Both the position numbers and the translations under genes were made by a program. A stretch of DNA of 48,095 bases. It comes from Gammaproteobacteria bacterium (GTDB lineage Bacteria; Pseudomonadota; Gammaproteobacteria; Arenicellales; JAANXG01). The notes below the pieces were generated by a model. It was not told the DNA's origin. It was given only the letters and a program-made list of their open reading frames with translations, and made no database searches. Positions 2,964 to 45,662 of the stretch are shown piece after piece (the first letter of the stretch is position 1; every line of letters starts with the position of its first letter). The stretch lies in the NCBI GenBank assembly GCA_024639325.1, contig JAHEIO010000025.1:1-48095 (forward strand), in the 5' to 3' direction.

Positions 2964-3238
2964 CTAGCCCGCATATTGCACCCGACCGGCCGTGATTGTT
3001 TTCTATGCCCTTGATCCATTTTCACCAATACACCGATTGGGATAGATTGATCCAAAGGACGGTTTGTCATCGGGGTCGGCCTATCCCGGTGCTGACTTGT
3101 CCAGCTTCGCCTGGGCTTGGTCTTCACTCGGACCGTAGCGACGGCTACGCTCCTCGCGCCGGTTCATCGCGGCGGGGGCGCCGCTCCTACAAAACCCGAC
3201 GCGGCGTCATCGCTCGCGATACGGGTGCAATATGCGGG
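2964..3238. mobile_element. MITE-like element, copy A
   Basis: About 275 bp of non-coding DNA bounded by inverted repeats: CTAGCCCGCATATTGCACC at the left and GGTGCAATATGCGGG at the right. The interior shares blocks with copy B at 35484-35733 (around TCTTCACTCGGACCGTAGC and TCATCGCTCG) and also holds a REP half-site. The right end abuts the stop codon of the tctA-like gene. The terminal CTAG is intact only on the left. With no transposase it would need one in trans. It fills most of the 385-bp gap between the GST and tctA-like genes. Confidence 0.8.
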
Positions 3239-17067: not shown

Positions 17068-17213
17068 CTAGCCCGCATTTCTCACCAGGCGGCTATAGAA
17101 TCTCGTCAAGCATGGCAAACATCGAGGTCTATGGATTTGTCCAAAAAACAGTGTGTCTTGGAAACGCCTGTCCTGCGCCATCGCTCGGAATCCTGGTGAG
17201 AAACACGGGCTAG
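17068..17213. mobile_element. MITE-like element, copy C
   Basis: 146 bp bounded by CTAGCCCGCATTTCTCACCAGG and its imperfect inverse CCTGGTGAGAAACACGGGCTAG. The right half shares the block CGCCTGTCCTGCGCCATCG with copies B and D. It has the TTTCTCACC subtype of inverted repeat, where A and B have ATATTGCACC. The element sits between the small-RNA terminator and the DUF1127 gene. Confidence 0.82.
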
Positions 17214-34084: not shown

Positions 34085-34393
34085 GTGAAACTGTTTCTGA
34101 TTCTGGTTGGTATCGCTATTGTCGTCATAGGCTCTCAATACTATTTCGATTCTCCGCCCGCCAACGAGAGTTGTGCGGCAGATCCGTTACCGTCTTGTGC
34201 GGCCCTCAGCCGCACCGGAAGCCACGTGACGGTCATTAATAATTGCGAGTACGACATCACGCTTCAGTGGGAATTTTTGGCTGGATCAAACCAGGTCCAT
34301 AACCTGTCCCCCGGGGGGACCAAAAGAGTGTCGTCATATCCCATCAAGGTTGACTCGGTCTCCTGTTGTCCTGAACACAACCGATGCTGGTGA
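34085..34393 (+). CDS. Small membrane-anchored Cys-rich protein of unknown function
   Basis: A GTG at 34085 with GGAGAC six bases upstream gives 102 residues; an ATG at 33992 would add 31 with no signal character. The product has one membrane helix (VKLFLILVGIAIVVIGSQYY). A Cys-rich periplasmic part follows (SCAADPLPSCAAL, NNCEYDITLQWEF, SVSCCPEHNRCW). TATAAT occurs at 33982-33987. The end overlaps the next gene by 10 bp in another frame. No family is recognised; the NNCxYDITLQW segment resembles short beta-sandwich domains. Confidence 0.65.
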   Translation: MKLFLILVGIAIVVIGSQYYFDSPPANESCAADPLPSCAALSRTGSHVTVINNCEYDITLQWEFLAGSNQVHNLSPGGTKRVSSYPIKVDSVSCCPEHNRCW

Positions 34394-35487
34394 GCCGTCC
34401 GATTGTCGGGGGTATGCAGCGCAGCCTGATCCGCAACAGTCTGATCATGTGCATTGCGGTCGGCGTAACGGACTGCACCAGCATCGGCCCCAAAACCATA
34501 CCCCGGGATCGCTCGAACTATATCAACAGCGTTGCCACATCCTGGAAATCCCAAACATTGCTCAATATCGTCAAACTACGGTACGCCGATACCCCCGTGT
34601 TTCTGGAAGTGGCGCAGATCGTCAGCGGCTATACGGTGGAAAGCCAGCTCGCGGCCGAGGCCAATCTTTCTAACATTCAGGACAGTCTGACGCTGGGCGG
34701 CGAAGGCAAGTTCATCGACCGGCCCACGATAACGTATTCGCCGTTGACCGGCGACAATTTCGTACGCAAATTGCTTGCGCCCATACCACCCAGTGCAGTG
34801 TTGTCACTCATCCAGTCCGGATGGCCGGCGGACCTGGTCATGAGAACTACGGTTCAGGCCGTCAACGGTCGGCGTAACCAGTCGGGGACCGAACCTCGCC
34901 GGAGTCCCGCCGACAAGGATTTCTACCACCTGATCGATCTGTTGCGGGAGATCCAGCAATCGGGCGCATTCGGCATGCGCATCGAACAGCGGGCCCAGGA
35001 AAAAGATACTACCGTACTGTTTTTCTATCACGAAACGCTGGATCCAAACGTTGCGGTAATTATCGAGTCATTGAAGGAACTTCTTGGCCTGGACCGGAAC
35101 TCCCTTCGTTACAAGATCGCGTATGGCGCGATTCCGAGCGGGGATGACGAAATCGCCATCCTTACTCGCTCGGTCATCCAGATCATGCTGGAAATCGCCT
35201 CTTACATCGAGGTTCCGAAAAAACACATCGAGAGCAACCGGACGCAGCAGACCGCTTCGGTCAAGACCGAAGTCGAGGCGGATATCCCCCCGCTCATTCG
35301 CATCAAAAGCGGTAAGGAACGACCCACAGATCCCTTTGTCGAAATCGAGTACGAAGACTACTGGTTCTGGATCAACGCCGACGATTTCGATTCGAAGAGG
35401 GTCTTCACCTTTCTCATGCTGATACTGATGCTGTCGGAGACCGGTGATAGCGGAAAGCTGCCCGTACTGACCATACCCGCGGGCTAG
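34384..35487 (+). CDS. Envelope protein of uncharacterised conserved type
   Basis: The 367-residue product has a short hydrophobic N-terminus (LIMCIAVGVTDCTS) and then the striking stretch RSNYINSVATSWKSQTLLNI followed by VKLRYADTPVFLEVAQIVSG. I have a memory of similar sequences in uncharacterised pseudomonad and other gammaproteobacterial proteins, but no named family. The Cys after VTD could carry lipid, though the site is not a canonical lipobox. A second ATG at 34414 would remove 10 residues. The TAG stop is part of the left CTAG of MITE copy B. Confidence 0.75.
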   Translation: MLVSRPIVGGMQRSLIRNSLIMCIAVGVTDCTSIGPKTIPRDRSNYINSVATSWKSQTLLNIVKLRYADTPVFLEVAQIVSGYTVESQLAAEANLSNIQDSLTLGGEGKFIDRPTITYSPLTGDNFVRKLLAPIPPSAVLSLIQSGWPADLVMRTTVQAVNGRRNQSGTEPRRSPADKDFYHLIDLLREIQQSGAFGMRIEQRAQEKDTTVLFFYHETLDPNVAVIIESLKELLGLDRNSLRYKIAYGAIPSGDDEIAILTRSVIQIMLEIASYIEVPKKHIESNRTQQTASVKTEVEADIPPLIRIKSGKERPTDPFVEIEYEDYWFWINADDFDSKRVFTFLMLILMLSETGDSGKLPVLTIPAG

Positions 35488-35733
35488 CCCGCATATTGCA
35501 CCAGTACGGTCGTGATTGTTCTATAGCGTATTGATCTTGCAATTGAATATGCTTGGCAGACGTACAGTTTAGAATGGAGGGCCGACCTCTCCCGGTCACT
35601 GACTCGTCCAGCTTTGTCTGCGCTTGATCTTCACTCGGACCGTAGCTACGGCTACGCTCCTCCCTCCAGACCGGCGCTCAATCAAACCTGTCCTGCGTCA
35701 TCGCTCGGGACACTGGTGCAATATGCGGGCTAG
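35484..35733. mobile_element. MITE-like element, copy B (gives stop codons to both neighbours)
   Basis: 250 bp bounded by perfect inverted repeats: CTAGCCCGCATATTGCACC at the left and GGTGCAATATGCGGGCTAG at the right. The left CTAG supplies the TAG stop of the gene ending at 35487; the right CTAG, read on the minus strand, supplies the TAG stop of the AsmA-like gene ending at 35730. The interior shares blocks with copy A and contains the palindrome CCGTAGCTACGG. It has no coding capacity and would need a transposase in trans. Confidence 0.88.
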
Positions 35734-36458
35734 TCCAAAAGCTTTTCAAGTTTCTTGCCGAGCTTGTCCTTGAGCGCGTCCTGCTTTTCCCCCATGTACT
35801 CTTGCGCCTTTTTCTTCAGCGTTCGCCTAGCCGTCTCCGCCAGGACCTGCGCGACGAACTGACCCAGCATTACGCGGGCGATCTGTTGCGGCGAGCCCTT
35901 CAGGTTTCCGAAGCGCAGCCGATCGATGGTCAGCTCCACGGGCTCCCCGCCATCATCCCAAGTGACCGTGGCTTTCGCTTTCTCGACTTCGACCTCGTCG
36001 ATCTGGATTTGAACCGGATCTCTGTCCGGGTCTTTTTCCTTTTCTTCCTCCTGTTTTGCATTTTCTTCACCGCTCGTGGCCGAGGCCTGTATATTCCGGT
36101 TCAAAACCTCGAAATTGGATCTGTCGCCCTTGAATTCGACGCGAATCTGCGGCTCGCTGGTGTGGATACGCTTAACCACACCTGAAACAATGTCAACGAC
36201 CGCGGTAATTTCGCTGAAACGAAACGCCGGTTGATCACTGAAACCCGGCGGATTCGCAACAGAGAGATTACTGATAGCCGCGCTGCCCTGCCTCAATCTG
36301 ATGCTGACGGACTCGGCACTGACTCTTGTTCCCAACACCTCGGACCCGGTATCTTCGATTATGTTTCTGGCAATTGAATCCAAGTTGCCTAGAAGAAAAT
36401 AGGCGGCCGCTGCAAGCACAGCCAAAACAATGAAAACCGTAACAAGGATTTTTTTCAT
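35730..36458 (-). CDS. AsmA/DUF748-like inner-membrane-anchored protein
   Basis: The 242-residue protein has an N-terminal membrane helix (ILVTVFIVLAVLAAAAYFLL). An AsmA-type periplasmic region follows: VRIRL-like VSIRLRQGSAAISNLSVANP, then SEPQIRVEFKGDRSNFEVLN. A highly charged linker (about 125-145) and a C-terminal amphipathic helix (KKAQEYMGEKQDALKDKLGK) complete it. AsmA-like proteins shape lipid transport or outer-membrane assembly; this is a short member. The stop codon lies in the end of MITE copy B. Confidence 0.75.
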   Translation of the reverse strand: MKKILVTVFIVLAVLAAAAYFLLGNLDSIARNIIEDTGSEVLGTRVSAESVSIRLRQGSAAISNLSVANPPGFSDQPAFRFSEITAVVDIVSGVVKRIHTSEPQIRVEFKGDRSNFEVLNRNIQASATSGEENAKQEEEKEKDPDRDPVQIQIDEVEVEKAKATVTWDDGGEPVELTIDRLRFGNLKGSPQQIARVMLGQFVAQVLAETARRTLKKKAQEYMGEKQDALKDKLGKKLEKLLD

Positions 36459-42407: not shown

Positions 42408-42585
42408 CTAACCCGCATTTCTCACCAGGATCCCGAGCGATGGCGAAGGACAGGCGCCGATGAACACCGGTGCTGGACCGCTTCACTTCGTTCGGAATGA
42501 CGAAATTCTGAATTAATCAGAGTGCCCCAATCACTGTAAGTCCCCGGCAGGAAGTCGAAGCCGCCTGCTGAGAAATGCTGGTTAG
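42408..42585. mobile_element. MITE-like element, copy D
   Basis: 178 bp bounded by CTAACCCGCATTTCTCACC at the left and the imperfect inverse CTGAGAAATGCTGGTTAG at the right. Its left half carries, in reverse orientation, the block CGCCATCGCTCG shared with copies B and C. The right end lies three bases from the argB stop codon. With copy C it belongs to the TTTCTCACC subtype. It fills most of the 275-bp gap between the lpxD-like gene and argB. Confidence 0.8.
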
Positions 42586-45643: not shown

Positions 45644-45662
45644 GGTGCAATATGCAGGCTAG
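45644..45662. repeat. Isolated MITE-type end containing the hslV stop codon
   Basis: GGTGCAATATGCAGGCTAG differs from the right end of copy B by one base. Its terminal CTAG, read on the minus strand, gives the hslV TAG stop. The partner end is not seen in the 55 bp to the hslU start, so the element is truncated. Confidence 0.75.

Follow-up and report, generated by a model that had tools for sequence, protein, structure and literature searches.

The window analysed here (the whole stretch of 48,095 nucleotides of contig JAHEIO010000025.1) carries at positions 35484-35733 a sequence formed by a CTAG, 242 bp and a second CTAG, in which the element takes up the whole intergenic gap between two convergent genes. 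In what follows, A designates the TIR type of this element and B a second TIR type, CCCGCATTTCTCACC. The features of the locus are these:

34384-35487, plus strand: gene 1, 367 aa; the ORF closes with GGC TAG, its stop lying in the left CTAG; orthologs in 3/3 other genomes of the genus
35484-35487, no strand: left CTAG copy of the target-site duplication; TAG at 35485-35487 is the stop of the plus-strand gene
35488-35729, no strand: MITE-like element, A-type, 242 bp, non-autonomous, without transposase; 18-bp TIRs; homologous copies aligned
35488-35505, plus strand: left TIR, CCCGCATATTGCACCAGT, an 18-bp perfect repeat
35641-35656, no strand: hairpin CGTAGC-TACG-GCTACG in the interior; it is conserved, and A- and B-type elements differ in it by compensatory changes
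35712-35729, minus strand: right TIR, 18 nt, the reverse complement of CCCGCATATTGCACCAGT
35730-35733, no strand: right CTAG copy of the target-site duplication; its minus-strand TAG (CTA at 35730-35732) is the stop of the minus-strand gene
35730-36458, minus strand: gene 2, 242 aa; the ORF closes with GAC TAG, its stop lying in the right CTAG; 95% ortholog in the sister genome

The coordinates and reading frames proposed for this locus in an earlier note are correct, and the in-frame TAG of both convergent genes sits in the CTAGs. The locus was compared with its own genome (G000, 4.69 Mb), the sister genome (G003) and two congeners (G001 and G002). Gene 1 gave no Pfam match, and its orthologs in the three remaining genomes of the genus showed 75-98% identity. 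Gene 2 displayed a weak DUF748/YhdP (AsmA-like) match, below the cut-off, and among the 13 family genomes searched its ortholog (95%) was present only in G003. The ends of the element formed an inverted repeat of 25 nt, 96% complementary, with 206 nt separating the arms. Since the window is poor in CTAG (27 occurrences versus 71 expected), the CTAG pair at the locus is not explained by chance CTAG density. The window also contained further sequences of the same family at 2968-3238, 17072-17209, 42412-42581 and 45644-45658, corresponding to three elements (one A-type and two B-type) and one unpaired TIR.

The description of the element as MITE-like was borne out by its repetition. The full 242-bp sequence had 42 matches in G000, and the A-type TIR (up to two mismatches) matched 130 times, far above the seven matches of a reversed control pattern; for the B-type TIR the figures were 236 and 0. 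As each intact element has two TIRs, this amounts to roughly 100 or more copies in G000. A and B elements were homologous over the right half, and element lengths were mostly 77 and 237-257 bp. The family thus combines TIRs and a target duplication of fixed length (4 bp, YTAR) with small, dispersed, multi-copy elements that carry no transposase. In these respects it resembles other bacterial MITEs, such as the QMITEs of Coxiella, which are likewise short, multi-copy, noncoding and mostly extragenic, with TIRs and target duplication (PMC5896051). We also considered REP/REPIN sequences and rejected them, since these are tetranucleotide plus local hairpin units without duplication, whereas our element has ends that pair with each other over a distance of 206 nt and is flanked by a 4-bp target duplication.

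Exact B-type TIRs numbered 140 in G000 and 72 in G003; five genomes from a second genus of this bacterial family had 13-76, and the congeners G001 and G002 had none, so that the distribution of the MITE family is patchy and in bursts. The TIR was also present, around interiors that differed, in MAGs bearing labels such as Acidobacteria, Planctomycetota, Myxococcales and Nitrospira, and the MITE family therefore extends over several phyla. It seems undescribed in the literature searched, as a search with the TIR letters retrieved unrelated papers only. Comparison of the TIR with plasmids and phages yielded just short chance matches, and no element-like TIR pair was found in 11 stretches of viral contigs. 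In three of the viral contigs (L368, L370 and L374) we observed a recurrent TIR-like match with a weaker one 2456 bp away, the flanks of which were unlike a target duplication.

Because CTAG is palindromic, the window locus alone cannot separate a target-site duplication from the terminal bases of an element, and the earlier note had taken it for the terminus. We examined the tetramers lying outside the CCC of 329 TIRs, and found CTAG in 141, TTAG in 35, CTAA in 31 and TTAA in 26, i.e. YTAR. In the 69 elements flanked on each side by YTAR, the left and right tetramers were the same in 57, while 37.7 would be expected if the sides were independent. Moreover, among the 13 pairs that were not palindromic, 11 were direct and two inverted (p 0.02). 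Direct repeats mark a target duplication, whereas a terminal sequence would be inverted, and this identifies CTAG as the target and not as the end of the element. The same was apparent at two orthologous sites that are empty in G003. For the G000 element at L313:9238-9314, the arrangement CTTAG-element-CTAG corresponded to TTTAG in G003, and for that at L317:11794-11870, CTAG-element-CTAG corresponded to CTAA, with one YTAR in each case. These results show that the CTAGs are a 4-bp target-site duplication made by a MITE family that targets YTAR, and that the boundary of the element is 35488-35729, 4 bp inward on each side of the first reading.

The empty sites also bear on the origin of the stops. 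At both of them, the minus-strand gene that ends in the right-hand tetramer has the same end codon without the element: one protein ends ...KVGQP*, with a TAA stop in G003 and TAG in G000, and the other ...FAGLSLI*, with TAG in both genomes. Accordingly, and contrary to what had been proposed, the element does not supply the stops; at these sites the neighbouring gene already ended there. Gene 1 ends ...KLPVLTIPAG* in G000, in G001 (TGA) and in G002 (TAA), and in the last two, where its neighbours differ from those of the window locus, no element follows; the element did not reshape this C-terminus. The C-terminus of gene 2 could be compared only with G003, which also carries an element there. 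The suggested reshaping of both C-termini is consequently not supported. In Coxiella, QMITE2 extends the C-terminus of a protein, enhC, in one strain (PMC5896051), whereas here the C-terminus is preserved. A true CTAG terminus, bringing its own bidirectional stops and truncating or extending both genes, would be compatible with the CTAG/CTAG flanks of the window locus and of 45 of the 69 elements with YTAR on both sides. However, the variation of the flanks within YTAR and their agreement as direct repeats (e.g. CTAA..CTAA), empty sites with one YTAR and a gene already ending in it, and a gene 1 C-terminus that is unchanged without the element make this explanation highly improbable. The comparison with element-free relatives thus gave a single YTAR and the same gene end at two other loci; for the window locus, no element-free genome with both genes convergent was found (13 family genomes searched for gene 2).

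The search for a transposase centred on the loci of G000 and G003 with PF13701 (absent in G000), PF13546, PF01609 and PF05598, and the TIR was beside none of them, these being draft assemblies in which multi-copy IS may be lost. Likewise, the 59 ORFs beside unpaired TIRs in 118 GTDB stretches displayed no recurring protein and no listed transposase family in Pfam. The sequence bounding a full autonomous element of the family would be CCCGCATWTYKCACCAG. By analogy only, YTAR would point to an IS5- or IS701-like enzyme. IS5 generates the same 4-bp YTAR target duplication (PMC10359306) with a TIR different from that of the element, and even though YTAR is shared, derivation from the IS5 family was not borne out in G000 and G003, where the TIR was absent beside the IS5-like, DDE_Tnp_1 and DUF772 loci. 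In IS701 the duplication is exactly 4 bp long (PMC2266710), as it is here. The IS701-type domain had no match in G000 and a single one in G003, without the TIR of the element. The IS1380 family is characterized by C-rich ends. Derivation from it was not borne out either, as the G003 IS1380 copy (L328), whose ends by eye are apparently CCTGCCGGTTGCATAAATT, lacked this TIR.

We believe it very likely that a MITE inserted into one CTAG that both genes shared as stop, and that this CTAG was then duplicated. A single CTAG would have held the overlapping stops (4 bp) of the two convergent genes, and a non-autonomous MITE with 4-bp YTAR specificity, presumably mobilised by a transposase, would have entered it. 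Gap repair would then have doubled the CTAG. Each gene would thereby have retained its in-frame TAG, one on either side of the element, without any change in the two proteins. Copies at such sites would be retained, and most insertions within genes purged. The shared ancestral CTAG of the window locus is reconstructed rather than observed. The idea of an insertion at two stop codons was right in essence, although the economical version involves a single CTAG, used by both genes and duplicated by the insertion.

It is known that the tetramers that permit 4-bp overlaps of convergent genes are CTAA, TTAA, CTAG and TTAG (PMC2174442). YTAR is exactly this set, and insertion in such a tetramer therefore duplicates both stops, which makes these sites harmless landing places. 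The state reconstructed for the window locus is one of these overlaps, which the element has divided while duplicating the tetramer that the genes shared. In 1.33 Mb of G000 and G003 sampled, five element-free YTAR sites served as stop for two convergent genes, which indicates that targets of this kind exist. We found three independent double-stop insertions: that of the window, one at L177:5410-5485 between genes of 166 and 566 aa, and one at L191:2897-3134 between genes of 542 and 281 aa. A further candidate, L300, was rejected as its left end was spurious. The duplicated tetramers had drifted in two cases, the right copy in L191 to CTAT and the left copy of the window site in G003 to GTAG, with the stop triplet kept in both. 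Mechanistically, the case is one of ordinary transposition, the target being unusually forgiving, and the point of interest is the equivalence between YTAR and the double stop. It provides a testable rule, namely that insertion at the end of a gene leaves the protein unaffected when the duplicated target acts as a stop on either strand, and it makes 4-bp convergent overlaps natural safe harbours for the entry of transposons into gene-dense bacterial DNA. It also calls for caution in annotation, as shared stops at flush junctions of gene, element and gene do not necessarily imply new C-termini.

At the exact window site, G003 carries a B-type element of 240 bp (G003:C45:13018-13257, equivalent to L061:1258-1497), within flanks that are 96-97% identical. 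A second A/B swap was found at L288:12249-12485 versus L096, with a B-type element in G000 and an A-type one with a rearranged right end in G003. Two other pairs examined as swaps (L312/L124 and L252/L049) were rejected because they look like internal deletions, and L315/L079 (77 versus 254 bp) was ambiguous. Among the sequences compared, neither the window element nor that of G003 had a full-length near-identical copy (best, 83% and 88%). The replacement would be explained if a new element entered the duplication left by an earlier one and one copy was then lost, and equally if the two insertions occurred independently at this safe CTAG. Elements in tandem with a single tetramer in common, the second having inserted at the duplication of the older, were observed at L080:1501, L281:8329 (G003:C107; A followed by B) and L253:10562.

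The presence of an element at this site in both G000 and G003, albeit of different subfamilies, is also what would be seen if it had been co-opted, and was kept because it provides both genes with a 3' structure or a bidirectional terminator. The element strand folds better than shuffles (z -6.1), and 32 full-size copies shared interior helices with compensatory changes separating A from B; the TIR helix was 96% paired across these copies, and in the helix cells, 96% paired, 112 were changed on both sides versus 47 in shuffles. The interior hairpin has a stem of 6 and, among the aligned elements, TACG, ACCG or GACG loops. However, the stability of the fold comes largely from the TIRs, as in any MITE, the compensations separate just two subfamilies, and copies of 77 bp that lack the interior are likewise found at stops. 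Given so few evolutionary events and these short copies, we regard the compensations as a feature of the element and not as a proof of function. Furthermore, the element contained no terminator-like site, no Rfam match above chance was obtained, and there was no bias in the orientation of elements relative to the abutting gene. Such a co-option is thus unlikely.

Finally, we analyzed the position of the elements relative to genes, using a home-made codon-model caller with identical settings for elements and control CTAG sites. Of 54 elements in the genus, 25 were on a stop codon, 28 were extragenic and one was inside a gene, while the 563 control sites were distributed as 62, 184 and 317. The near absence inside genes (1/54 versus 317/563) is as purifying selection predicts. 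Three of the 25 stop-codon elements were double, including one orthologous duplicate and one spurious case (L300). When only positions outside genes were considered, 47% of the elements (25/53) and 25% of the CTAG sites (62/246) were exactly on a stop (p 0.002), a difference that persisted after removal of duplicates (22/49 elements on a stop, p 0.009), and 22/53 elements versus 45/246 sites lay between convergent genes (p 0.0005). These excesses may reflect selection against insertion in promoters and operons, or a real preference. The latter would mean that, beyond mere survival, the family targets stop codons or gene 3' ends through context beyond YTAR or a transcription-dependent choice, and it would fit the apparent re-use of sites, since different subfamilies occupied two of about 10 orthologous occupied sites in G000 and G003. 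Nevertheless, selection against promoter and operon insertions would give the same skew, the stop excess within convergent gaps was not significant (p 0.12), and the gene calls come from a home-made codon model, so that we consider such a preference rather unlikely. Only tentatively can it be suggested that an apparently undescribed and widespread family preferentially settles on stops, duplicates them and re-uses the sites, its subfamilies replacing each other with the proteins untouched. Two elements (L006:1501-1754 and L131:5215-5431) were chimeric, in that one of their ends had an A-type TIR and the opposite end a B-type TIR, which suggests recombination between subfamilies.
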